Shown here one piece after another: positions 9,019-37,396 of a stretch of DNA of 64,000 bases. The translations under genes were made by a program, and so were the position numbers. Location of the stretch: contig NSKG01000012.1 in the NCBI GenBank assembly GCA_002287035.1, forward strand, positions 1-64,000, in the 5' to 3' direction. Source of the stretch: Pseudomonas sp. WN033 (lineage in GTDB: Bacteria; Pseudomonadota; Gammaproteobacteria; Pseudomonadales; Pseudomonadaceae). Positions within the stretch are counted from its first letter, which is position 1, and each line of letters begins with the position of its first letter. The notes beneath the pieces were generated by a model. The model did not search any database and was not told the origin of the DNA. It worked only from the letters and a program-made list of their open reading frames with translations.

Positions 9019-9357
9019 GTGGATTGTCTGTTCTGTAAGATCGTCGAGGGCAAAATCCCGGCGAAAAAAATCCATGAAGATGATCAGGTAGTGGCCTTTC
9101 ACGACATCAATCCGCAGGCCCCGGTACACTTCCTGGTGATTCCGAAAAAGCATATCGCCACGCTCGCCGAACTGACTGAGGCCGACAACGCCCTAGTGGG
9201 TCATATGGTCTTCACCGCTCAGCGCCTAGCCCGGGAACTGGGTTGTGAAGCGGGCTTTCGTACCGTATTCAACTGCAATGAACAGGGCGGGCAGACCGTC
9301 TACCATATCCACCTGCACGTCCTCGGTCAGCGCCAGATGACCTGGCCGCCAGGTTGA
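9019..9357 (+). CDS. hinT: HIT family nucleotide-binding hydrolase
   Basis: Histidine-triad purine-nucleoside phosphoramidase, a small cytosolic hydrolase of AMP-lysine-like adducts. The triad HIHLHVLG is near the C terminus and CLFCKI at residues 3-8 is the usual N-terminal segment. The GTG at 9019 with GATGAGGA upstream gives 112 residues, the normal HinT length; earlier in-frame starts would reach back into the divergent ATPase gene. It is followed by a MITE that separates it from coq7. Confidence 0.92.
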   Translation: MDCLFCKIVEGKIPAKKIHEDDQVVAFHDINPQAPVHFLVIPKKHIATLAELTEADNALVGHMVFTAQRLARELGCEAGFRTVFNCNEQGGQTVYHIHLHVLGQRQMTWPPG

Positions 9358-9367
9358 TCTCAATCAA

Positions 9368-9507
9368 GGAACCTCTGAAAAACGTAGGCGAGGCAGGCAA
9401 GACAAGGCAAAAACAGCCGAAAAAGCGCAGTTTACGTGGTGTAAATGAGCATTTTGAGGCTGTTTTTAACGCCGTATTGCCAACGCAGGTAGTTTTTCAG
9501 AGGTTCC
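9368..9507. mobile_element. 140-bp MITE with perfect 16-bp inverted ends and TCAA duplication
   Basis: Perfect 16-bp terminal inverted repeats, GGAACCTCTGAAAAAC at 9368-9383 and its complement at 9492-9507, enclose a non-coding core that is itself an imperfect palindrome (AAAAACAGCC pairs with GGCTGTTTTT, with a small TTTAC/GTAAA hairpin in the middle). The element is flanked by a direct TCAA at 9364-9367 and 9508-9511, consistent with a 4-bp target duplication. There is no transposase; it must be moved in trans. The ends resemble those of IS5-like elements, which is from memory. The folded RNA could also serve as a terminator between the HIT gene and coq7. Confidence 0.85.
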
Positions 9508-9565
9508 TCAACCCCCGAATGGCCCGGCTGCAGGTATACTGACCGGGCATTTTCAGGAGTACTCC

Positions 9566-10835: not shown

Positions 10836-11480
10836 ATGGTTCCTATCACCTTGACCCCTAAAATAAAAAATCTCGATGCATTCCTGACCCACTGCCACCG
10901 CCGTCGCTTCGCCGCCCGCAGCACCATCATCCATGCCGGAGACAGTTCTGACAGCCTGTTCTATATCGTCAAGGGCTCAGTCACGATCCTGATCGAAGAT
11001 GATCAGGGCCGCGAAATGATCATTGCCTACCTCAACCAGGGTGACTTCTTCGGGGAAATGGGGCTGTTCGATCTGGAGCAAAGCCAGCAGGACCGCAGTG
11101 CCTGGGTGCGCACCAAGACCGAGTGCGAAGTCGCAGAAATCGGTTACAGCAAATTCCGGGAAATTACCCAGCACGATCCGGAACTACTGTACTCGGTAGG
11201 CCGGCAGATGGCTGAGCGGCTGCGCAACACCACTCGCAAGGTCGGCGACCTGGCCTTTCTCGACGTCACTGGGCGGGTTGCCCGCACCCTGCTGGACCTG
11301 TGCAAACAGCCTGACGCCATGACCCATCCCGACGGCATGCAGATCAAGATCACCCGCCAGGAAATCGGTCGCATTGTCGGCTGTTCACGGGAAATGGTCG
11401 GGCGGGTACTCAAGGGCCTGGAGGATCAGGGCCTGATCGAGGTCAAAGGCAAGACCATGGTGGTCTACGGTACCCGCTGA
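10836..11480 (+). CDS. vfr: cAMP-responsive regulator (Crp/Vfr)
   Basis: Global transcription factor binding cAMP and DNA as a dimer; in P. aeruginosa Vfr controls virulence and metabolism. At 214 residues it matches Vfr. The N-terminal cyclic-nucleotide domain contains [10 protein letters not shown], the phosphate-binding cassette, and [16 protein letters not shown] with the conserved Arg-Ser; the C-terminal helix-turn-helix reads [20 protein letters not shown] (about residues 169-188), identical in pattern to Crp's recognition helix. A GC-rich hairpin follows 20 bp after the stop. Vfr rather than Anr is supported by the lack of N-terminal Fe-S cysteines. Confidence 0.95.
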
Positions 11481-22499: not shown

Positions 22500-22513
22500 T
22501 TGATAATGGTCAA
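22500..22513. promoter_or_regulatory. Near-perfect Anr/FNR-type box at head of first copper cluster
   Basis: TTGAT-AATG-GTCAA: nine of ten consensus positions of the TTGAT-N4-ATCAA box, inside a 17-bp perfect dyad (GATAAT/ATTATC, 22502-22518). It begins only 17 bp before the preferred start codon of the minus-strand gene, too close for classical activation, so it might repress or belong to another regulator. Confidence 0.35.
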
Positions 22514-24609: not shown

Positions 24610-27600
24610 TCAGCTCGCCTTCAGCTGCCGACGCCGCAACAACCACCAGGCTGGCGGCAATACCAGCATCGACAGTAACGGTGCGGTTACCATGCCGCCG
24701 ATCATCGGCGCGGCGATACGACTCATGATCTCACTGCCGGTCCCGGAGCCCAGCAGAATCGGCAATAAACCGATGACCAGGACCAGAACCGTCATGGCCT
24801 TGGGCCGAACCCGCTGCAAAGCGCCCTCGTGGATCGCCACCAGCAGCGCGGTTTCCCCGTGCTCGCCCTGTACCAGCCGTTGCTGCCAGGCATTGCGCAG
24901 ATACAGCAGCATGATCACTCCAAACTCGGCAGCTACTCCGGCCAGAGCAATGAAGCCAACCGCCGAAGCCACGGACAGGTTGTAACCCAGCAGGTACATG
25001 AACCAGAGCCCGCCAGTCAGCGCGAACGGCATGGTCACCATGATCAGCAAAGCCTCATCAACCCGGGAAAAGGTCAGATACAGCAGCACGAAGATAATCA
25101 TCAGGGTGGCAGGCACCACCAGCATCAAGCGCTGATTGGCACGCTGCATGAATTCGAACTGGCCCGAGTAGCTCAGGCTCATGCCGGGGTCCAGCGTAAC
25201 CTCGGCCGCAATCCGCTGGCGCAAGTCGCGTACCAGCGAGCCCATGTCGCGTCCGCGCGCATCAATATAGACCCAGCCCGAGGGGCGTGCATTTTCACTG
25301 CGCAGCATCGGTGGCCCTTCACTGATACCGATCCGTGCAACACTACCCAGGGTGATCTGCGCACCATCCGGCGTCAGGATCGGGAGTTGTTGGAGGGCTT
25401 GTGGCGAGTCACGCCAATCGCGGCCGTAACGCAGACTGATTGGGTAGCGAGCCAACCCTTCAACCGTCTCACCGATGTTCATCCCACCCACTGCGCCAGC
25501 CACCAGATCCTGCACATCGGCGATATTCAGGCCATAGCGCGCGGCGGCAAAGCGATCAATCTCAACATCCAGATAGCGTCCACCGGTAAGCCGCTCGGCA
25601 ATCGCCGAGGTGACGCCGGGCACCGTTCTGGCCACCTGTTCGATTTCGCGGGTCAACGCGTCGATGCGAGCCAAATCAGAGCCGGCCAGTTTGATGCCGA
25701 TCGGGCTTTTGACCCCGGTGGCCAGCATATCGATACGATTGCGGATCGGTGGAATCCAGAGATTGGCCAGCCCCGGTACCTGCACCGCCCGGTCAAGCTC
25801 CTCAATAAGCTTTTCCGTGGTCATCCCCGCTCGCCATTCGGAGCGCGGTTTGAGCCTGATGGTCGTCTCGAACATTTCCAACGGCGCCGGGTCGGTAGCA
25901 GTGTCAGCCCGCCCAGCCTTGCCAAAGACCCGTTTGACCTCGGGCACAGTCATGATCATCCGATCAGTCTGCTGCAGTAGTTCTGCTGCGCGCTGGGCCG
26001 ACAAGCCCGGCAGAGCGGTCGGCATGTAGAGCAGATCACCCTCATCCAGCGGCGGCAGGAACTCCCCACCCAGGTGCGACAAGGGCCACAGGCTGGTCAG
26101 AAACACCAGTAGAGCAACCAGCAGGGTGGTTTTCGGCCAGCGCAACACCGCCTGCAACCAGGGTCGATACAACCAGATCAGCCCACGATTGAGCGGGTTA
26201 TGCTGTTCGGGACGAATGCGTCCACGCACGGCATACAGCATCAGCACCGGGATCAGGGTAATCGAGAGCCCTGCCGCGGCGGCCATGGCCCAGGTTTTGG
26301 TCCAGGCCAGCGGGCTGAACAGCCGCCCTTCCTGCGCTTGCAGGGTAAATACCGGGATGAACGACAGGGTAATGATCAACAGACTGAAGAACAGTGCCGG
26401 GCCCACTTCAGTGGTAGCCTCGAGAATCAGGCGCCGGTGCTCGCCCTGGTCTGGTTCACGTCCGCCGTGGGCCTGTTGCCAGGCTTCGAGCTTTTTGTGC
26501 GCATTCTCGATCATCACCACGGCGGCATCGACCATGGCACCAACCGCAATGGCAATCCCGCCGAGCGACATGATGTTGGCGTTGATACCCTGGGCCTGCA
26601 TGATGATAAAGGCCAGCAGCACCCCCAGCGGCAGGGAAATGATCGCCACCAGCGATGAACGCAGGTGCCAGAGGAAGGCCGCGCACACCAGAGCGACAAC
26701 AAGGAACTCCTCGATCAGCTTGCGGCTGAGATTGGCAATGGCACTGTCGATCAGCTCGGCCCGGTCGTAGGTGGTTACAATCTCCACCCCTTCCGGCAGG
26801 CTGGCACCCAGTTCAGCAAGGCGTTGGCGCACCCGGTCGATGGCTGCCCGGGCATTGCCGCCGCTGCGCAGCACCACCACGCCACCCACGACCTCGCCCT
26901 GACCATCCAGCTCGGCGATCCCTCTGCGCATCTCCGGCCCCAACTGGATACGCGCCACATCGCCCAGCAAGACTGGAACCCGGGCATTATCCAGACGCAA
27001 CGGAATCTGCCGGAAGTCCTCCAGCGTCTGCAGATAGCCGCTGGCGCGCACCATGTATTCCGCTTCGGCTAACTCCAGCACACTGCCGCCGGCTTCCTGG
27101 TTGGCACGCCCGATGGCCGCCTGCACCTGCTGCTGAGTTACCCCCAGGGTCGCCATGCGCACAGGATCAAGAATGACCTGATACTGTTTGACCATACCGC
27201 CAACGGTGGCCACTTCCGCCACTTCCGCCAGGGCCTGCAGCTCAAATTTCAGGAACCAGTCCTGCAGGCTGCGCAGCTCAGCCAGATCATGCCGGCCACT
27301 GCGATCCACCAGGGCATACTGGTAGATCCAGCCAACCCCCGTAGCGTCTGGGCCAAGCGCCGGCGCAACCCCTTCCGGCAGCCGCCCCTGAACCTGGTTG
27401 AGGTACTCCAGTACCCGTGAGCGGGCCCAATACAGATCAGTGCCATCCTCGAACAGTACGTACAGGAAGCTGTCGCCAAAGAACGAGAAGCCGCGTACCG
27501 TGCTGGCCCCAGGCACAGCCATCATGGTCGTGGCCAGCGGATAGGTGATCTGGTTCTCGACGATCTGCGGGGCCTGTCCTGGCCAACTGGTACGAATGAT

Positions 27601-27741
27601 CACCTGAGTGTCAGACAGGTCAGGCAGGGCGTCGATCGGCATCCGCTGCATGGACCAGATACCCCAGGCCAGACCGAACAGGGTGGCCAGCAGCACCAGC
27701 AGGCGGTTATCCACAGCCCAGCGAATAATGGCGGCAATCAT
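24610..27741 (-). CDS. cusA: CusA-type Cu(I)/Ag(I) RND efflux pump
   Basis: Inner membrane proton-driven transporter that expels Cu(I) or Ag(I) through an adaptor and TolC channel. The 1043-residue protein has the HME-RND signature [19 protein letters not shown] near 400. Comparison with E. coli CusA shows the same GETVEG block near 738, the Met in [11 protein letters not shown] (about 808) and the Met in [10 protein letters not shown] (about 857). These match two of the CusA metal-site methionines, arguing for monovalent Cu/Ag rather than Zn/Co (CzcA). It is the last gene of the cusCBA run; cusB ends 4 bases into its start. Its stop lies 8 bp from the ispA stop, so it closes the island on the left. 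Confidence 0.94.
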
Positions 27742-29174
27742 GGCTGCACCTCACGCTTCTCGATCCGCACGATCGGCAGGCCGTCCGGGTCCTCGCGGAC
27801 CCAGACCCGTACCGCATCGCCCTCGGCGATATCACTCAGATCCAGGGCCGGATCAACCGCAAACTGCATGCTCATGCCAGCCATACCCAGAGTCTCGAAC
27901 GGGCCGTGTTCAAGCATCACCCCGTCCTCGTCAAAGTACAGCACCACCGCATCCGCCGGGTGCAAGACCTCAGCCTCAGCGCTGCCACGGGCGACAATAC
28001 CCCGCAAACTGGCTTCGGAGTCGATCAGGAACTGGGCGGCGATGACCACCTGCTGCCCTTCCTCAAGTCCATCCAGCACCTCGACTCGCTCACCACTTTC
28101 CCGCCCGAGCCGGACCCGTTGTGGTCGAAACCGGCCATCGCCCTCGGCCAGCATGACCAGATCCTCCTGACCACCCCGGATCACCGCACTGGCCGCGACC
28201 AGCAACTGCTCGCTGGCAACCCCATCCAGCAACTGCACCCGTGCACTCATGCCTGGGCGCAAGCGAGCATCGGCGTTATCCAGAACCGCACGCACCCGCA
28301 CCACCCGGGCACGCTCATCAGCTTCAGGCAATAGCTGCTCGACCTTGGCTTGCCAGACTTCCCCCGGCCAGGCCGGCAGATGCACCTCAAGCGGTTGCCC
28401 GGCCCGCAAGCTGGCGGCCTGCGCCTCTGGCACCGCGGCTTCCAGCCAGATGCGCTCGATCCCGTTGATCCGCGCCACCGTACTGCCGGCTGGCAGGCTC
28501 ATCCCGGCACGCACCGGCCACTCAGTCAGCACCCCTGCCACGGGGCTGCGCAGCGTCCAGCGCATCTGCACCCGTCCGGTCGTGCGCACGGCCCGCATCA
28601 GGTCTTCGGGCATACCGCTCAGACGCAGACGCTGCCAGGCCGCCTCGCTTAGCTGGGCATCCCCAAGCCGTCGTAAGGCCAGATATTCTTCCTGGGCAGC
28701 TACCCAGTCCGGCACCAGCAGTTCGGCCAAGGGCGCCCCAGCCACCAGCACATCTTCCGGCGCCAGCGCCGCGACCGACTCAACCCAGGCCTCAGCCCGG
28801 GTTTGCAGCACGCTGACCTGGCGCTGGTCATAACCCAGTACCGCGCTAGCCTGCAGGACCGGCTCAAGCCGGCCTCGCTCGACTTGGGTCAGGCGCATCC
28901 CAAGATTGCGGGTCAGTGAGGGGTCGATACGAATGCTGCTGCCATCATCGCCGGCATCGGCATAACGCGGCACCAGATCCATGTCCATGAACGGAGAGCG
29001 ACCCGGCGCATCGAAGTGCTGCTGCGGATACATCGGGTCATACCAGTAGAGAATCCGCCGCTCGGACTCGACAGCCGCCGTGGCATGCTCGCCATGCCGT
29101 TCGGCAGATGCCAGCACCAAGCCCGGCACCAGCAAAATCAGTAGTTGAGCAATCATCAGATGACGACCAGACAT
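27738..29174 (-). CDS. cusB: CusB-type adaptor with fused C-terminal CusF-like domain
   Basis: Periplasmic adaptor that links the CusA pump to the outer membrane channel. The 478-residue chain begins with a signal peptide and a heavy-metal-binding segment ([19 protein letters not shown], then [11 protein letters not shown]). The membrane-fusion-protein core with lipoyl-like and beta-barrel domains follows to about residue 400. The last 70 residues resemble CusF ([19 protein letters not shown]), so the metallochaperone seems to be built into the adaptor. The stop overlaps the cusA start; the start is 2 bp from the cusC stop, giving strict translational coupling. Confidence 0.92.
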
Positions 29175-29175
29175 G

Positions 29176-30420
29176 TCAGCGCTCTCCCCAGGTCAGGTGC
29201 AGGCGGGTGTGACTGATGGCTCGTGCGGCCACCAGCTCGATATGCTGCAAACGGGTTTCAATAAGTTCACGACGCGCTTCAATCAGACTGTCCAGCTCCG
29301 CACGTCCTCCGCGATAGTCCGCCAACGCCAGCTCAGCGCGCTGTTCAGCCAACGGCAGCATCTGCTGCATGCTACGCGCCTGGGCCAGTTCAAGCCGCCG
29401 GTATTGGCTCAGCTCGACCTCCAGCTCGTTTTCCAGGCGCAACCTAGCGCTGTCACGTTCGCGATCCAACGCCGCCAACTCTGCTTCGCGAGCGGCAATA
29501 CGGGGCTGTTGCCGCCGACCGGAAAAGAGTGGCAAGCCAACGCTGACCTGAACACTGAACATGTCATCCAGCCCCATGCCACGTCGCTGGTACGCCAACT
29601 CCCAACCCCAGTCCGGTCGCCGATCCGCCTCAGCCAGCCGCACGGCCGCCTCGCGCTCACGCGCCAGCGGCCGGTACTGTGCCAGTTCCGGCTGCAGGGC
29701 CAGACGCGCCCGATAACCATTGAGGTCGAGCGGCCACTGCGGCCAATTGCCCAGTGTCTGTGCCGGCGCCTGCGCCCCCAGCCAGCGCCGCAACTGCGCA
29801 CGCCACACCTCCTGCTCGCTCAACAACAGGTCTCGCCGCTGGTCCAGCCGGGCCCGTTCCAGAGCCGCCAGGGGTTGTACGGCCAATGGGCCGAGACCGC
29901 CCGCCAGGCGTGCGGCGATGGATGCCGCGAGCACATCGTTCTGAGCATAAAACTCGTCAAATAGCGCCAGTTGGCGCTGCAAGGCGTGCAAGCGCAGCCA
30001 GGCTTCAGCCACCTCCAGACGGACATTCAGGCGCTCCACTTCATACTCGGCCTGCACTCTTTCCACGGCGGCGCCAGCCAGTTCACGCTGGGCCTGGCGG
30101 CGGGCGCTATTGGGCACCTCCTGCATCAAGCCAATCATCTGCATGGTCATGCCGTCGGCGTTGAGACGACCGCGCCGATCGCCTTCGATCGGCACATTCT
30201 GCAGACCCAACGCCAGCTTCGGATCCGGTAACTGGCCGGCGGCCTGGGCCTCGCTACGCACGGCCAGTTCGTTCAGGCGCCAGGCCTGCAGACTGGGGGC
30301 CTGCTGTTCAGCCAGGCTCAGGGCCTGTTCCAGGGTCATGGCCTGCAGCGGCAGGCTCAGACAGAACACCAGGGCACTGCCAACAAGCAGACTCCGGCGA
30401 CAAAAAGAGGGATTCAACAT
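29176..30420 (-). CDS. cusC: CusC-type TolC family outer membrane channel
   Basis: Outer membrane exit duct of the Cu/Ag tripartite pump. Starting at the ATG at 30420 gives 414 residues with a signal peptide (RRSLLVGSALVFCLSLPLQA) but no lipobox cysteine, unlike E. coli CusC and unlike the TolC lipoprotein of the first cluster. The OEP repeat pattern is visible, for example QRRGMGLDDMFSVQVSVGLP near 280. It is the first structural gene of the cusCBA run and follows the small secreted Cys protein by 83 bp. Confidence 0.9.
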   Translation of the reverse strand: MLNPSFCRRSLLVGSALVFCLSLPLQAMTLEQALSLAEQQAPSLQAWRLNELAVRSEAQAAGQLPDPKLALGLQNVPIEGDRRGRLNADGMTMQMIGLMQEVPNSARRQAQRELAGAAVERVQAEYEVERLNVRLEVAEAWLRLHALQRQLALFDEFYAQNDVLAASIAARLAGGLGPLAVQPLAALERARLDQRRDLLLSEQEVWRAQLRRWLGAQAPAQTLGNWPQWPLDLNGYRARLALQPELAQYRPLAREREAAVRLAEADRRPDWGWELAYQRRGMGLDDMFSVQVSVGLPLFSGRRQQPRIAAREAELAALDRERDSARLRLENELEVELSQYRRLELAQARSMQQMLPLAEQRAELALADYRGGRAELDSLIEARRELIETRLQHIELVAARAISHTRLHLTWGER

Positions 30421-30503
30421 GATCGCAACTCTCTGGTGATCGCCGTGACAAGGCACGGCAGAACGTCAACGGTTAAGCCGTTGGTCCGGGGGTCACACAG
30501 GAG

Positions 30504-30863
30504 TCAGTGGCGCGGCGGGCGCCAGAGCGGGTAGTTCATGGCCGGGCTGGCGCCGGCATGAGTAGCGGGAACAAGTGTGTTCTTGGGCAGGATGCCGGAC
30601 AACTGGCCTCCGCCCACCAGGGCAGCGGCACTCAACTGGCAATCCAGCCCGCTGTCACACAGCAACTCGGCGGTACTGCTCAGCCAGTCAGCAGTGCCAA
30701 TGTCGGCACAGTCTTCATGCAGGCCGTGCATCATGACCGGCTCATCAACCAGGCACGCCTGGGCCGCAAGCAACGTCGCCGCCAGCGTATTGAACGACAG
30801 CAGCAAAGTCACCAGCAGAGCACCCAGGCAAGCACGCAAGGCAGGCATCAGCAGTCCGACCAT
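30504..30863 (-). CDS. Small secreted Cys-rich protein heading the cusCBA unit
   Basis: Not recognised with certainty. The 119-residue chain has a hydrophobic signal (LGALLVTLLLSFNTLAATLLAA), followed by CLVDEPVMMHGLHEDC and LLCDSGLDC, then a polar region and the tail YPLWRPPRH. The Cys, His and Met pattern suggests copper binding. The same general plan (signal, cysteines, RPPR-like tail) is seen in the first gene of the 22.5-kb cluster, so the two may be distant relatives of DUF2946/CopL. A perfect Anr/FNR box lies 52 bp before its start. Confidence 0.6.
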   Translation of the reverse strand: MVGLLMPALRACLGALLVTLLLSFNTLAATLLAAQACLVDEPVMMHGLHEDCADIGTADWLSSTAELLCDSGLDCQLSAAALVGGGQLSGILPKNTLVPATHAGASPAMNYPLWRPPRH

Positions 30864-30914
30864 TCGGGATTGAGTTTCATACGGTAAAGACTAGCATCTT
30901 CACCAATCAATGGT

Positions 30915-30928
30915 TTGATCAAGATCAA
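30915..30928 (-). promoter_or_regulatory. Perfect Anr/FNR box before the cusCBA unit
   Basis: TTGAT-CAAG-ATCAA matches the consensus at all ten positions. Its centre is 31 bp upstream (minus strand) of a TAGTCT -10-like hexamer (30888-30893), the spacing expected for a class II FNR-type promoter centred at -41.5. The start codon of the first gene lies at 30863. The gap between cls and this gene is only 76 bp and the box lies wholly within it. Confidence 0.75.
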
Positions 30929-30939
30929 CGCCAAGGCGC

Positions 30940-32400
30940 TCACAACACTGGCGCAAACAGATAGGCCGCCCGGGCCGCTACCCGGTACCACAACGACAGC
31001 GAATCCAGATCGTCGCGGTGCATCAAGCGGGAGCGAGCAAAGTCCTGCTCGAACATCAGCTCGACCTCGCGGGCAAAAGCCGCATCAATAACCAGCGCGG
31101 TGACCTCGAAGTTAAGCCGGAACGAGCGATTGTCCAGATTGACCGTGCCCACCCCGGCGCCGACGTTATCGACCAAAAAGCTCTTGCCGTGCAAAAAGCC
31201 GCCCTCATAGCGATAAACCTTGACGCCGGCCTCCAGCAAGGGGCCAAGGAAAGCGTAGGCGGCAAAATACAGCAAGGGATTGTCCGGACGCTGGGGGATA
31301 AGAATACGGACATCCACCCCATTGATCGCCGCCAGCTTGAGCATCGACTGGACGCTCTCATCGGGTACGAAATAGGGGCTGGAAATCCAGATCCGCTGAT
31401 GGGCCGAGTGAATCGCCTGCTGAACCATCAGACTGGCAGTGTCGAAACTGTCAGCCGGGCCAGAGGGCAGAATCAGCACCGGCGCGGCATGATGACTGGG
31501 CACGCTCGGCTCCCAGGGCAAATCGAGAATTTCCTCGGTTGCCCAGTGCCAGTCCTCACAGAAAACCAGTTGCAACGCCAGCGCGGCCGGCCCCTCGATC
31601 AACAGATGGGTATCCCGCCATGGGCCGAGCCGGGCATGCCCGTGCAAATACTCATCCCCGACATTGAGGCCGCCAACCCAGGCCCGCGCACCGTCGGCAA
31701 CGACAATCTTGCGGTGGTTGCGAAAGTTCAACTGCAACCGGTTGCCACGCCCCCGGGTCGAGTGAAAGCGATGCACCTGTACCCCGGCCTCACGCAAGGC
31801 CTGCAGGTAGTCGGCCGGCAACGCATAACTGCCGATCTCATCATAGAGAAAAAACACCTCAACCCCTTGCCGGGCCTTGTCAATCAGGCGGGCCTGCAGG
31901 GCCATACCCAGGTCATCGGCGCGCACGATGTAAAACTGCACCAGAAGGTAGCGCTCGGCCGCCTCGATGCCGGCAAACAGACTGGCGAACGTGGCTTCGC
32001 CGTCAACCAGCAATGACACCTGATTGGCTTCAAGAAACGGCAGTTTGGCCAACCGCTCAACACCCGCCAGATGTTTATTGTCGTAGGCCAGCGTCGCCCG
32101 CTGACTTCGCAACTCGGTCATTTTCGCCATCAAGGCCTGGCTCAGCTCAGAATCCTCATCGCGCCGGGCGTTGACGTACCCCTGAAATTTGGTCCGGCCA
32201 AACACCCAGTAGGCCGGGACCGCGACATAAGGCATCGCATTAAGCGAGACAATCCAGGCCACCGCCCCCGGCGCCGTGCGGGTCGACATCATCGCATCCA
32301 CCGATGAAACCAAGCCCATAATCTGAAACAGCGCCGCAACCATCAGCCAGCGGCGCCAGCGCCGACGTTTGGCTGGTGCTGTCACAAGATTCTCAGCCAT
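30940..32400 (-). CDS. cls: Cardiolipin synthase, phospholipase D family
   Basis: Inner membrane enzyme joining phosphatidyl groups to make cardiolipin. The 486-residue protein has two N-terminal hydrophobic helices (about 17-35 and 45-65) and the two HKD motifs HRKIVVAD near 231 and HGKSFLVD near 405, both intact. This is an accessory copy within the copper region; the chromosomal housekeeping gene should be elsewhere. It lies 10 bp after the SAM methyltransferase gene and is followed by a new promoter for the cusCBA unit. A role in adjusting the membrane under copper or silver stress is inferred from its neighbours. Confidence 0.93.
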   Translation of the reverse strand: MAENLVTAPAKRRRWRRWLMVAALFQIMGLVSSVDAMMSTRTAPGAVAWIVSLNAMPYVAVPAYWVFGRTKFQGYVNARRDEDSELSQALMAKMTELRSQRATLAYDNKHLAGVERLAKLPFLEANQVSLLVDGEATFASLFAGIEAAERYLLVQFYIVRADDLGMALQARLIDKARQGVEVFFLYDEIGSYALPADYLQALREAGVQVHRFHSTRGRGNRLQLNFRNHRKIVVADGARAWVGGLNVGDEYLHGHARLGPWRDTHLLIEGPAALALQLVFCEDWHWATEEILDLPWEPSVPSHHAAPVLILPSGPADSFDTASLMVQQAIHSAHQRIWISSPYFVPDESVQSMLKLAAINGVDVRILIPQRPDNPLLYFAAYAFLGPLLEAGVKVYRYEGGFLHGKSFLVDNVGAGVGTVNLDNRSFRLNFEVTALVIDAAFAREVELMFEQDFARSRLMHRDDLDSLSLWYRVAARAAYLFAPVL

Positions 32401-32410
32401 CGCTACTCAG

Positions 32411-33070
32411 TCAGCCAGGCTTGACGGCGCTATAAAGCGCCATGGTGCCGAACAGGGTATTGAAGGTCCTGGCCTGTGTTACCTCGACAAAGCCCGCTGC
32501 TTCAAACAGTGGTACCAGCCGGCCGGCCAGGTTGTCCCCGGTATTGTCAAAACCATCAAGCAACTGGATGAACAGGAACAGGCTACGCATCAGCGGGTTT
32601 TCGGGCTTGCCCCAGTCCGCGACATGCAACTGGCCGCCCGGCTTGATGATCCGAAACAGCTCCCGCGCAGTGCGCTGTTTTACCTCCCAGCTCAAGTGAT
32701 GAAAGAACAGACTGGAGAGCACCCGATCAAACCGGGAATTGGCATAGGGCAAGGCCTGGGACATGGCCTGAGCAAAGTCGACACTGATCCCCGCCTTGTC
32801 GGCCTTGCGTCTGGCCAAGGTTAGAATCGCCGGGTCGGCATCCACTGCGCTCATGCTGAGCCTCGGATACTGCCGCTTGACCCAGACCGCCAAGGTTCCG
32901 GTGCCACAGGCCAGGTCCAGCACCTCCAATCCGGGAGCCAGACCGGCTTGTGCGATCAGCGCCTGTTTGACGCGCTTCTCACGCGTTGTAAGTCCCACCA
33001 CAGCATCATAAAGTGGCGTCAAGCGATGAAACCCCAAAGCCGGGACAAACGTCGAGTCAGCGCGTTTCAT
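32411..33070 (-). CDS. Class I SAM-dependent methyltransferase (UbiE-like)
   Basis: Methyltransferase with unknown substrate, perhaps a lipid or quinone. The 219-residue protein has the SAM-binding motif LEVLDLACGTGTLAVWVK near 49-66, an acidic residue in SAVDADP near 75, and SSLFFHHLSWEVKQ near 117, as in UbiE/phospholipid N-methyltransferase relatives. It lies between cardiolipin synthase and a membrane methyltransferase in the copper region. Two methyltransferases and a cardiolipin synthase together suggest lipid remodelling, but nothing in the sequence fixes the substrate. Confidence 0.85.
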   Translation of the reverse strand: MKRADSTFVPALGFHRLTPLYDAVVGLTTREKRVKQALIAQAGLAPGLEVLDLACGTGTLAVWVKRQYPRLSMSAVDADPAILTLARRKADKAGISVDFAQAMSQALPYANSRFDRVLSSLFFHHLSWEVKQRTARELFRIIKPGGQLHVADWGKPENPLMRSLFLFIQLLDGFDNTGDNLAGRLVPLFEAAGFVEVTQARTFNTLFGTMALYSAVKPG

Positions 33071-33129
33071 CTACCCTCCTGGCGACACAAGAGCATGTCC
33101 TGAGCTTAGCCGAAATCCTCGTCATCGCT

Positions 33130-33789
33130 TCAGGGCTTGCCCTCCCCACGCCGACCGAGCTGCCAACGCGGCAGGAAGCGGGGCGTACGCGCCGCGTAGT
33201 CACGCCATTCATCCCCGAACTGGGCCGCTATTTCCGCTTCTTCAGCCACGGCCAAACGGGCATACATCCAGGCCAGGACCGGGAACATCGCCAAAGTAAG
33301 CAGTGTTGGCCACTGCAGCAGGAAGCCCAACATGATCAGCATAAACCCCAGGTACTGGGGGTGGCGAACATGGGCATACAGCCCACTGGTGGCCAACGCC
33401 TGCTGCTGTTGAGCGGCATAAAGAGTCCGCCATCCCTGGGCAATCAGGTAGAAGCCCAGGCCAATCAAGAGCAGACTGAGCAGATGAAATGGGCCGAAAT
33501 GGGGAGCGCTTTGCAACCCGAACAGCATTTCCAGCAAATGCCCGCTGTCATGGGCGAACCAGTCGATCCCCGGATAGCGGCTTTGCAACCAACCCGCCAG
33601 GAAGAACAGAGTCAGGGGAAAACCATACATCTCTGCAAACAGCGCGACTAGGAACGCACTGAACGCGCCAAAGGATCGCCAGTCACGCCGCGTTTTCGGC
33701 TTGAAGAAACTGAAGGCAAAAAAGATAAAGATTGCCGAGTTGATAATCACCAGCCCCCACAACCCATATCCAGACGCATCAGAGTGCAT
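33130..33789 (-). CDS. Isoprenylcysteine/PEMT-type membrane methyltransferase
   Basis: Integral membrane methyltransferase family protein. Starting at the ATG at 33789 after GGGAGAAGTGAC gives 219 residues with about five membrane helices. The C-terminal half carries the ICMT-like block GLYAHVRHPQYLGFMLIMLGFLLQW (the RHPQYLG motif is the SAM/substrate signature) and a later E near EEAEIAAQFGDEW. In other bacteria such genes travel with DUF2933 and Cu ATPase genes; the substrate is unknown. It ends 59 bp before the SAM methyltransferase start and begins 1 bp after the DUF2933 gene. Confidence 0.85.
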   Translation of the reverse strand: MHSDASGYGLWGLVIINSAIFIFFAFSFFKPKTRRDWRSFGAFSAFLVALFAEMYGFPLTLFFLAGWLQSRYPGIDWFAHDSGHLLEMLFGLQSAPHFGPFHLLSLLLIGLGFYLIAQGWRTLYAAQQQQALATSGLYAHVRHPQYLGFMLIMLGFLLQWPTLLTLAMFPVLAWMYARLAVAEEAEIAAQFGDEWRDYAARTPRFLPRWQLGRRGEGKP

Positions 33790-33790
33790 G

Positions 33791-34045
33791 TCACTTCTCC
33801 CTGGGCTTGTGGGTATCATGACCCGAGTGGCCGTGGCCGCGATGCATGAAAATATGCATCAGCGGACAGGCCAACAGAATCAGCCAAGGCAGCGCACCCA
33901 ATAGGTGGGCGCGATGTTCCTGCCATAAAAAAAACCCGGCGATCAGTGCAAATCCGGCAAACGCCAGCCAGTAACGCCTGGGACGAGGAAGGCCGGACAG
34001 CGCTCCGAGCTCGGACTGCTGACGACTAACAGGCTTATGCTTCAT
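33791..34045 (-). CDS. DUF2933 small membrane protein
   Basis: Short membrane protein of unknown role. The 84-residue chain starts at the ATG at 34045 after GGAGGTGTTC; it has two hydrophobic helices (about 25-42 and 48-62) and the DUF2933 tail LLACPLMHIFMHRGHGHSGH, rich in His with one Cys, which could bind Cu at the membrane surface. The start overlaps the copA end by 11 bp. It is regularly seen beside Cu P-type ATPases, so an accessory role in copper efflux is likely but unproven. Confidence 0.82.
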   Translation of the reverse strand: MKHKPVSRQQSELGALSGLPRPRRYWLAFAGFALIAGFFLWQEHRAHLLGALPWLILLACPLMHIFMHRGHGHSGHDTHKPREK

Positions 34046-36329
34046 GAACACCTCCGGCCTGCCCGATGCGTGCAAAGCGCCGCTTGAGCAGCAACGAGTT
34101 ACCGATGACCGACAACGAGCTGGCGGTCATCGCAATCACCCCGATCATTGGGTGCAACAATCCGACCGCGGCCATCGGAATGGCTGCGACGTTGTAGGCA
34201 CTGGCCCAGATCAGGTTCTGTACGATCTTGTCGAAGGTCGAACGGGACAACTGCATGGCTTCAACCACGCCGGTCAGCTCACCACGCACCAGGGTTACAT
34301 CGGCGGCCTCGATGGCCACGTCCGCGCCGGCCCCAATGGCAATACCGACATTGGCCTGTTTGAGCGCCGGCGCATCATTGATGCCATCTCCAACCATCGC
34401 GACATGGTTACCGTAGCGGGCCTGCAACTGGCGGATGGCATCGACCTTGCCCTCGGGCAGCACACCGGCCTGCACCTCATCGATTCCTACCTCCTCGGCT
34501 ACCGCCCGGGCGGCACGTTCGTTATCGCCAGTGATCATCACCACATGCAATCCCAGCTTGTGCATGCCCCTGACCGCTTCAGCCGACTCGCCTTTGACGG
34601 TATCGGCCACGGCTACCAACCCCAGGGCCGCGCCATCACAGGCCACAATCACCACCGTGCACCCTCGCGCCTCCAGCCGTTGCAGCGACTCATCCAGGCT
34701 CTCAAGCGCGGTTATGCCCTGCTCCGCGAGCAGCCGACGGTTGCCGATCAGAACCTCTGCGTCGCCGACCCGGCCTGCTACGCCCCGCGCGCCAATGGAG
34801 CGAAACCCGGTCACCCCGGCGACCGCCACCCCACGCTCACTGGCGCCATCGACGATGGCCCGGGCAATCGGATGTTCGGAGGCGTTTTCCACACTGGCGG
34901 CCAAGTGCAAAAGATGCTGTTCGGAAACCCCTGCCGCCGCCACAACCTCGGTCAGACGAGGCTCACCACGGGTAATGGTGCCGGTCTTGTCCAGCACCAT
35001 GACCTTGATGTCCTTGAAGGTCTGGATCGCTTCACCGGAGCGAATCAGGATGCCGCGCTCGGCCCCGATCCCGGAACCGACCATCAGTGCAGTCGGCGTA
35101 GCCAGGCCAAGCGCACAGGGGCAGGCAATGACCAGCACCGCAACGGCGGCGAGGATGGCCAGCACCGGGCCGTCGGCTTGCGGGTTGACCCAGGGCAGGA
35201 ATTGGGCACCCCAGTACAGGATCGGCCGCAGAGTTTCGGGAAACACTAGCCAGGCGGCCAGGCTGAGCAGCGAGATCAGCACTACCAGAGGCACAAAACG
35301 TCCGGTCATGCGGTCGGCGAACTCCTGGATCGGCACACGCGAGCCCTGGGCCTGATCTACCAGACGAATCACCTGAGCCAGGAAGGTATCGCGTCCTACC
35401 CGGGTAGCCCTGACTCGCAAGCGCCCCTCTTTGTTGATGGTTGCACCAATTACCGGGCTGCCAACTTCCTTGTAGACCGGAACCGACTCGCCCGTTGCAA
35501 TGGATTCGTCGACATGGCTTTCGCCTTCGACCACCTCACCGTCGGTGGGGACTTTGTCGCCCGGCCTGATCACCATGATGTCGCCAGGTTGCAGCTCTCC
35601 GACCGGCAACTCCAGCTCTGTGCCGTCACGCTCGACCCGGGCAGTCTTGGCGCCCAGGGTCAGCAGCCGACGAATCGCCTGCGAGGCCCGGCCCTTGGCC
35701 TTGGCCTCAAGATAACGCCCGAGCAGGTGGAAGGTCATGATGGTCGCCGCCATTTCCATGAACGAGGTCATGGGAAAGATGAACCCCACCAGCCCTATGA
35801 AGTAGGGCGGCAGGCTACCTAGCGAAATCAGGACATCCATGTTCAGGGTACGGTTGGTAAGCGAGCGCCACGCTGCCTTGTGTGTGGCCGCGCCACCGAA
35901 CAGAAAGACCACCGGAAAGGCCAGCACGGCCACCATGGCCAGATAGCCCGGCACTGGCTGCCAGAACATGTGCGGCACCATCAGCAACATGATCAGCGTG
36001 GCGGGAACCCCGGCAATCCACAACCGCCGACGCGCCTGCGCCAGATATTGCGCCTCAATCTCAGCCGCATCCGCCTCATCGGCCGCAGCCCCTCGGCGCA
36101 CGGCAGCCACGTCATAGCCGGCGCGCTCCACCGCCTGCCGCAGCCGCTGTGAATCGTCGGCCCCCGAGCGGACACTGACGCTAACGTGGTGACTGGCTAT
36201 GTTGGTCCTAACCTCGGCAACCCCCTCAAGCCGCTGCAGGGTTTGCCTGACGATCCCGGCACAGTGGTCGCTACCCATGCCAGGTACTGTCAACTCATAC
36301 TCGCTGATACTGCTCTCAATTGTGCTCAT
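34035..36329 (-). CDS. copA: Cu(I)/Ag(I)-exporting P1B-type ATPase
   Basis: Inner membrane pump that moves Cu(I) or Ag(I) from cytosol to periplasm with ATP. The 764-residue protein starts at the ATG at 36329 after GGAG. It has an N-terminal HMA-like domain (10-75) in which GMGSDHC replaces the usual GMxCxxC, so only one cysteine remains. The P1B core is complete: the CPC motif in IACPCALGLATPTA near 403, DKTGT near 444, the TGDN hinge and VGDGINDAP near 646. Helix motifs around YNVAAIPMAAVGLLHP and MTASSLSVIGNSLLL are those of P1B-1 pumps. It heads the DUF2933-ICMT-methyltransferase-cls run. Confidence 0.93.
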   Translation of the reverse strand: MSTIESSISEYELTVPGMGSDHCAGIVRQTLQRLEGVAEVRTNIASHHVSVSVRSGADDSQRLRQAVERAGYDVAAVRRGAAADEADAAEIEAQYLAQARRRLWIAGVPATLIMLLMVPHMFWQPVPGYLAMVAVLAFPVVFLFGGAATHKAAWRSLTNRTLNMDVLISLGSLPPYFIGLVGFIFPMTSFMEMAATIMTFHLLGRYLEAKAKGRASQAIRRLLTLGAKTARVERDGTELELPVGELQPGDIMVIRPGDKVPTDGEVVEGESHVDESIATGESVPVYKEVGSPVIGATINKEGRLRVRATRVGRDTFLAQVIRLVDQAQGSRVPIQEFADRMTGRFVPLVVLISLLSLAAWLVFPETLRPILYWGAQFLPWVNPQADGPVLAILAAVAVLVIACPCALGLATPTALMVGSGIGAERGILIRSGEAIQTFKDIKVMVLDKTGTITRGEPRLTEVVAAAGVSEQHLLHLAASVENASEHPIARAIVDGASERGVAVAGVTGFRSIGARGVAGRVGDAEVLIGNRRLLAEQGITALESLDESLQRLEARGCTVVIVACDGAALGLVAVADTVKGESAEAVRGMHKLGLHVVMITGDNERAARAVAEEVGIDEVQAGVLPEGKVDAIRQLQARYGNHVAMVGDGINDAPALKQANVGIAIGAGADVAIEAADVTLVRGELTGVVEAMQLSRSTFDKIVQNLIWASAYNVAAIPMAAVGLLHPMIGVIAMTASSLSVIGNSLLLKRRFARIGQAGGVHEA

Positions 36330-36401
36330 GACGGGCACTCCAGACACGGGTAGGGAACACCGACAGGCAGAGCCCAGCAGGCCCTGCCATGCGGTGTACG
36401 G

Positions 36402-36836
36402 TCAGTGATGCCCGGCGTGTTCGTCGTCTTCTGACGTCTCAGCCGCCGGCTCAACAGCCGTTACCGGACTGCCGCCACGCTCGCGCACACAATCGACCAG
36501 CATGTCGCGATGCGCTGCCGCCATCCGGTCATGCAGCGCCCCGACCTGCTCTGGATCAGGGCTATCCTGCGCCAGCAAGGCCTGCATCTGGCCCTTGAGC
36601 TCCCGCATCTCCTGCATCCGGGCCCGATGCTGTTCTGGCATGGCCGCACCGGCCATCCCGCCTTCCATCGGCATCTCGCCCATCATCATGCAGGGCCCCA
36701 TACCCTGCTTCATCATCCCGCCGTGCTTGTCGTGCATCTGGTTCATCATGCCTTGGGCCAAGGCCATGAACGACGCTCCCGCCAGCCCGATAGCCAAGCT
36801 CAGGCCAACCATACGCTTACGTTGCAAACTCATCAT
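36402..36836 (-). CDS. Met-rich periplasmic protein, Spy/CpxP-like
   Basis: Predicted exported metal-binding protein. The 144-residue form starts at 36836 with GGGGAGCG before it. A signal segment (about 8-30) is followed by a strikingly Met-rich stretch (MMNQMHDKHGGMMKQGMG then MMMGEMPMEGGM) and a helical region with QMQALLAQDSPDPEQVGALHDRM like Spy/CpxP LTxxQ repeats. The tail ends in EDDEHAGHH. Many Met and His residues indicate Cu(I)/Ag(I) capture, a role like that of PcoE, SilE or CopM. It lies between copA and the small secreted protein at the head of the unit. Confidence 0.75.
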   Translation of the reverse strand: MMSLQRKRMVGLSLAIGLAGASFMALAQGMMNQMHDKHGGMMKQGMGPCMMMGEMPMEGGMAGAAMPEQHRARMQEMRELKGQMQALLAQDSPDPEQVGALHDRMAAAHRDMLVDCVRERGGSPVTAVEPAAETSEDDEHAGHH

Positions 36837-36923
36837 GATCGCGCTCCCCACAGGCCTGCGCCTGCTAAATTACCTATGTGTGAAAACGCCCCGGACAGGG
36901 GCCAGCCGGTCCCGCGGTGCCAC

Positions 36924-37328
36924 TCAAGGCCGCAGGCGCTGGGTTAACAGGTAAAGGGGCCGCCTGGCGACGCGAGGGGATTGGCGCGCAATCGGCAGTA
37001 CGGACACCACCGACCATTGGCAGACAGGGTTAGCCATCGGGAAGTAGTGCCCCGCACCAGGCTCGGTACGTTCGGCACGCGGCAAGAGCGCAGGAGCTAA
37101 ATGCTCCGTGTCTTGATGATGGCAGGCGGGCCGCTCATCGCTCAGCCACAGCGCCGCCCCGGACTCGAGCCCGGCGGTCTCGGACAAGCGAGGCACATCG
37201 GCGTGGGAGCCGACATGGGCCAAGGTCATCGGCGACGCCAGCAGCAATATCAACCATAGCAACACCCTACCAACCCATGCCGGACAGGGTGAACGGGTAG
37301 TGCTGAAGACATCCAAAGACATGGACAT
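36924..37328 (-). CDS. Small secreted protein heading the copA unit
   Basis: Not recognised. The 134-residue chain has a hydrophobic export signal (VGRVLLWLILLLASPMTLAH) followed by HVGSHADVPR, a CHHQDTEH motif near 69 and a lone Cys in ANPVCQW. The C-terminal part is basic and Pro/Arg-rich (VARRPLYLLTQRLRP). Its place as first gene behind a perfect Anr/FNR box, and its general plan, resemble the small secreted proteins at 30504 and 22103. It may be a divergent CopL-like or DUF2946-like protein; this is inferred from layout, not sequence identity. Confidence 0.55.
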   Translation of the reverse strand: MSMSLDVFSTTRSPCPAWVGRVLLWLILLLASPMTLAHVGSHADVPRLSETAGLESGAALWLSDERPACHHQDTEHLAPALLPRAERTEPGAGHYFPMANPVCQWSVVSVLPIARQSPRVARRPLYLLTQRLRP

Positions 37329-37382
37329 AGGCGTCTCGCGGCTTAGTACAGATTCACTCTACAGCCTTGCACTGTCGGGCCC

Positions 37383-37396
37383 TTGATACAGATCAA
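37383..37396 (-). promoter_or_regulatory. Perfect Anr/FNR box before the copA unit
   Basis: TTGAT-ACAG-ATCAA matches all ten consensus positions. On the minus strand a TAGAGT -10-like hexamer (37356-37361) is centred exactly 31 bp from the box centre, the class II spacing, and the first start codon (37328) follows after about 28 bp. In the other direction no -10 fits, so it controls the copper unit rather than dxs. Confidence 0.78.

Follow-up and report, generated by a model that had tools for sequence, protein, structure and literature searches.

Perfect Anr/FNR-type boxes near class II spacing ahead of two copper-export units in Pseudomonas sp. WN033 suggest an oxygen input to copper defence

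Copper defence is usually described as metal-triggered. In E. coli, the cusCFBA genes respond to copper via CusRS, and in CueR-CopA systems copper is exported by a Cu+ ATPase, while FNR/Anr class II promoters such as those of hemN and narK serve haem synthesis and nitrate respiration. Here we describe a 64,000-nucleotide stretch of Pseudomonas sp. WN033 (contig NSKG01000012.1, positions 1 to 64,000; hereafter the window), in which two minus-strand copper-export units, one with copA and one with cusCBA, are each preceded by a perfect Anr/FNR-type box. The cus unit has the CusCBA-type pump in common with E. coli, but it bears a direct predicted FNR-type site. The copA unit shares Cu+ ATPase export with the CueR-CopA systems and differs from them in that it has neither an adjacent MerR gene nor the dyad of its relatives, that CueR is encoded elsewhere, and that its metal-binding HMA motif reads GMGSDHC. 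With the hemN and narK promoters of the same genome the two boxes share the type of palindrome and, within one base, the distance from box to -10, but their targets are copper pumps. MerR-ICMT-CopA units of related genomes (loci L022, L168, L225 and L228) contain the same CopA subfamily and an FNR-type box or near-box and, unlike the window, a MerR gene and a ACCTGTGT-N5-ACACAGGT dyad upstream of that box. We consider it probable that both boxes serve oxygen-sensing Anr as class II activation sites, through which copper export would be raised as oxygen falls; the arrangement suggests that falling oxygen, besides copper itself, turns copper pumps on.

According to excerpts of a review, loss of cus makes E. 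coli sensitive to copper chiefly in the absence of oxygen (PMC7558416), and in the excerpted part of a study of a Rubrivivax copA mutant, Cu+ inhibits HemN (PMC11591864), so that a benefit from lowering Cu(I) is plausible as far as these partial texts go. The table of influenced genes in the excerpt of a Shigella FNR study includes copA (PMC4229854), and according to the available part of PMC3349551, cus transcripts without oxygen are up in two plant-pathogenic enterobacteria and down in E. coli. Neither Anr nor "anaerob" turned up when a review of copper in P. aeruginosa (PMC7922089) was searched for these words, and the excerpt of a comparative nitrogen-oxide regulon study (PMC1274295) names no copper efflux gene. 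Among the matches listed from the open-licence literature, in their titles and abstract starts, none mentions that copA or cus has a direct site for FNR or Anr.

The first-pass annotation had placed one perfect TTGAT-N4-ATCAA palindrome in the intergenic gap ahead of each copper-export unit, with 31 bp between the centre of the box and the centre of a -10-like hexamer. The sequences, their placement and the spacing were all confirmed at both promoters, where the elements are as follows.

37383..37396, minus strand: perfect Anr/FNR-type box of the copA unit, TTGATACAGATCAA, 54 bp ahead of the ATG of the first open reading frame (ORF); at the same place in G028 (L166), a genome of the same species or nearly so
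37356..37361, minus strand: -10-like hexamer of the copA unit, TAGAGT, close to class II distance
30915..30928, minus strand: perfect Anr/FNR-type box of the cus unit, TTGATCAAGATCAA, 51 bp ahead of the ATG of the first ORF; at the same place in G028
30888..30893, minus strand: -10-like hexamer of the cus unit, TAGTCT, close to class II distance

The copA box is found between the ATG (37328) of a 134-amino-acid ORF heading the unit and the divergent dxs (ORF from 37467), while the cus box sits within the 76-bp gap that extends from the end of the cardiolipin synthase gene cls (30940) to the ATG (30863) of a 119-amino-acid ORF heading cusCBA. Both hexamers are positioned at offset 35 from the box start. 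The textbook class II distance from box centre to -10 is 32 bp, and with their spacing of 31 bp both boxes fit a position of about -40.5. When the window was scanned with at most one mismatch, 5 box matches were obtained, compared with a shuffle mean of 0.63, and 5 matches were reached in 1 of 100 shuffles.

The genome encodes an FNR-subfamily regulator of 243 amino acids, here named Anr (322 bits with the NCBIfam Fnr model, cut-off 228). Cys15, Cys18, Cys24 and Cys117 are present and the recognition helix reads ETVSR; we take these four to be the iron-sulfur cysteines and the helix sequence to be significant. Counted from the start of the box, the hemN and narK boxes of the genome have TAGGCT and TAGCGT, respectively, at offset 36 (hemN is over its model cut-off, NarK just under it with 277 bits against 312). 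At two further canonical sites, those of narX and of a Dnr-like gene, no clear TAnnnT is seen at that offset. A whole-genome scan, which had been proposed earlier as a check on how rare perfect boxes are, gave 11 of them in 4,155,219 bp and a single match for the backwards-read pattern, a control with a different dinucleotide make-up. Of these 11, 7 or 8 look intergenic and the others are within genes or at a gene end (mechanical ORFs, start codons by reading), and one is located between narK-like and narX/narQ-like genes, which is a classical kind of target.

To compare related loci, CopA relatives of at least 65% identity were taken from the genomes of 116 relatives, 37 genus members, 369 members of the class and 390 members of the order (the sets overlap), together with three named records; the named-genome scan gave at least 80 loci, where the 3 with more than 65% identity were used and the other 77 (at most 54%) were not. 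The sample consisted of 29 non-redundant CopA loci read up to 3.5 kb upstream, shorter at contig ends. L166 and the sister copies L226 and L231 were left out, and L200 (truncated by a contig start) and L215 (a second copy in G623) were not read as regions. Since the 29 loci are related, the counts are not independent trials: an exact TTGAYN4RTCAA lies upstream of copA in 12 of 29 loci (60 first-order simulations: mean 0.5, maximum 3), where the next best of 60 permuted degenerate half-sites reaches 5 loci, and the TTGAT box with at most one mismatch is found in 13 of 29, the best result among 20 permuted half-sites (next best, 4). Among the controls, the exact box occurs in none of the 29 loci inside copA, in 2 of 29 downstream of copA (one of them being the window's cusC box), and in none of 21 loci within 1.5 kb upstream of ordinary CopA. 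At the equal length of 1.5 kb, this corresponds to 7/29 subfamily loci versus 0/21 ordinary ones (Fisher p 0.017). The FNR-type box upstream of copA in this subfamily is above chance.

The phase of the -10 was evaluated over 15 boxes, a set to which the L228 near-box was added, in which the merR direction of L024 was assigned by hand, and in which three boxes (L024, L172 and L234) have kindred upstream sequence. Of 80 offsets, 36 and 35 gave the best mean -10 scores (2.5 and 2.4, with an all-offset mean of -0.8), and TAnnnT was present within offsets 34-37 for 10 of the 15 boxes. The peak at offsets 35-36 is the class II phase.

One type of MerR gene (Pfam MerR_1 in the example L022) is present near copA in nine non-redundant loci (L022, L024, L168, L172, L225, L228, L232, L233 and L234). 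The dyad, with at most 2 changes, occurs in all nine, and an exact FNR-type box in seven, L228 having a near-box and L233 none; the box is situated 46-61 bp past the dyad in the merR direction in six of these loci and upstream of the dyad in L232. At these nine MerR-bearing relatives, metal and oxygen inputs may thus sit in tandem. A box or near-box with no adjacent MerR gene characterises six loci (the window, L023, L169 with a near-box, L170, L222 and L223), while L217 and L230, outside the nine, have a different, more CueR-like MerR with neither dyad nor box. No MerR was found among the ORFs within 3.5 kb upstream of the window copA unit, nor was a dyad of the relatives' kind when up to 3 changes were allowed; the promoter shows an oxygen-type site only, unlike the relatives with a MerR gene and dyad. 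The candidate explanation that a MerR/CueR operator was misread as an FNR box was rejected for the window, because no such dyad was found there and in the relatives dyad and box are separate, and an origin of TTGAC from a sigma-70 -35 element was rejected as a general cause, the -10-like hexamer being about 30 bp off. A single clade of the CopA tree, comprising 8 rows with 7 distinct proteins, carries a box or near-box throughout, and its upstream regions show four layouts. For the rows with no box, 7 changes were counted over the whole tree, a value as low being reached in 12 of 500 shuffles.

Several observations weigh against activation of both units by Anr. The exact box is absent from 17 of the 29 subfamily loci (L169 and L228 among these have near-boxes, and L224 was read over 760 bp upstream only), and three genomes of the same genus with dxs-copA synteny (G018, G029 and G024) have no box; G018 holds the nearest CopA beyond the window's own pair. 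Moreover, 3 of the 12 exact boxes are doubtful for copA. At the L232 box a -10 at class II distance is missing, and the box itself is missing from the sister locus L231, whose CopA is identical; the L024 box faces a merR running away from copA, with an ORF taken as a transposase between the two genes, so it does not head copA; the G011 (L170) box is matched by a -10 only in the direction of cus. Without these three loci the copA side comes to 9/29. The box label is patchy on the CopA tree and not significantly clustered (9 changes, a value as low being reached in 109 of 500 shuffles), and this weak tree signal, together with the orientation of L024, slightly lowers our confidence. In the part of PMC3349551 concerned with Dickeya and Pectobacterium, ordinary copA is down anaerobically. 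Finally, the cus-unit box occurs in the window, G028 and G011 only; it is absent before cus in 20 of 20 other CusB loci read as separate regions and was also not found in L167, L171 and L173, while L169 is readable only 262 bp upstream. Conservation therefore favours copA over cus, and the relatives other than G028 and G011 offer no upstream box that would speak for FNR-type control of cusCBA in general. Class II activation of the FNR type, as first proposed for both units, is well supported at the sequence level for copA by the regulator gene, the hemN/narK spacing and the recurrence in the CopA subfamily, and is weaker for cus.

From 37328 down to 24610, all genes run in one direction (mechanical ORFs and family searches):

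36924..37328, minus strand: ORF of 134 amino acids that opens the copA unit; its N-terminus is hydrophobic, and neither Pfam nor NCBIfam gave a match
36402..36851, minus strand: methionine-rich protein of 149 amino acids, matching Metal_resist weakly and not reaching the Pfam cut-off
34035..36347, minus strand: Cu+ P1B-type ATPase CopA, with CPC, YN and MxxSS motifs and HMA motif GMGSDHC
33130..33819, minus strand: ICMT/PEMT-like methyltransferase; several relatives have one near copA too
32411..33070, minus strand: class I methyltransferase
30940..32400, minus strand: cardiolipin synthase (cls)
30504..30863, minus strand: ORF of 119 amino acids that opens the cus unit, likewise with a hydrophobic N-terminus; its relatives precede cusC in several loci
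29176..30456, minus strand: CusC-like outer-membrane factor
27738..29174, minus strand: CusB-like adaptor with a C-terminal CusF domain
24610..27741, minus strand: CusA/CzcA-family RND pump

The window CopA has all the transmembrane motifs of Cu+ P1B-1 ATPases and scores above the cut-off with TIGR01511, a copper-translocating model (among the best 25 of 35 families); its metal-binding motif, with a single Cys, replaces the usual GMxCxxC. Inspected N-termini of related CopA proteins have GMGSDHC or GMGSNHC, sometimes in two such domains. The two pump sets are separated by the ICMT-like, methyltransferase and cls genes (30940-33819), and in several relatives ICMT or cls is likewise found close to copA. 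Elsewhere in the genome, a CueR that passes its model cut-off is encoded beside another ATPase over the Cu-type cut-off, and because of this pair the window's copper-export set looks like a second system. As to plasmid carriage, 52 plasmid records matched (E 1e-100), with identity below 60% in every case, so that none of them carries a close member of the CopA subfamily.

Apart from the two promoters, the window contains a third perfect box (9354-9367), absent from the first-pass annotation, which overlaps the end of a HIT-like gene and is not an obvious promoter element. It abuts a hairpin-like repeat of about 140 bp (about 9368-9510) that lies upstream of a coq7-like gene; both genes were named by eye. 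A further site, TTGATAATGGTCAA at 22500-22513, is 107 bp before a TauE-like gene and is kept in G028; it was rejected as a further member, as there is no -10 at class II distance. A Crp/Vfr-like regulator, above the CRP model cut-off, is encoded at 10836-11480.

If Anr acts at both units, a fall in oxygen would lead it to bind at about -41 of each promoter and recruit RNA polymerase, and transcription would rise for the second copper-export set, apart from the CueR-linked one. CopA and its companion genes would then move copper from cytoplasm to periplasm, and CusCBA from periplasm to the outside. The likely benefit would be less Cu(I) before the iron-sulfur enzymes of anaerobic metabolism are damaged.

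Anr and Dnr boxes are hard to distinguish by sequence, and Dnr, the nitric oxide (NO)-responsive relative of Anr, could be the main user of the boxes, in which case the pumps would track nitrite/NO respiration and not oxygen as such. The genome does encode a Dnr-like protein of the Crp/FNR family with no N-terminal Cys cluster (C1:33.7 kb), beside an NnrS gene and with its own box, TTGATGGCCGTCAA; however, FtrB is the only NCBIfam model that it matches at E 1e-20, with a score under the cut-off, and no model gives it the name Dnr, and we regard this explanation as unlikely. That the boxes are chance or leftover sequence with no function seems very improbable to us: some of the 11 genome-wide sites are inside genes or at a gene end and three same-genus relatives have none, as would fit such an origin, but perfect boxes head both units, 6.5 kb apart and with equal spacing, and the box recurs in relatives together with its -10 phase.

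It could also be hypothesized that the pumps supply copper to periplasmic anaerobic cuproenzymes and that Anr times this supply, not defence. Anr/FNR-type control is known for the copper-delivery ATPase of cbb3 oxidase, which counts in favour of supply. On the other hand, NosZ was not found in the genome (NirK and cbb3 genes were outside that search), and supply to NosZ was rejected on this ground; CusCBA, which exports out of the cell, bears the same box, and the TIGR01511 match of the window CopA also speaks against supply, which we hold to be highly unlikely.

More tentatively, and with considerable doubt on our side, this CopA subfamily may be a moving copper-export module whose ancestor had tandem MerR-metal and FNR-oxygen promoters. 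The lineage of the window would then have lost the metal sensor and would run CopA and CusCBA on oxygen alone, as an anticipatory defence before copper rises.

Should activation by Anr prove true, direct input from an oxygen sensor to both a Cu+ ATPase and a Cus pump would provide a genetic basis for the greater need of pump-based defence in anoxia, and anticipatory copper defence would become testable via simple promoter mutations.

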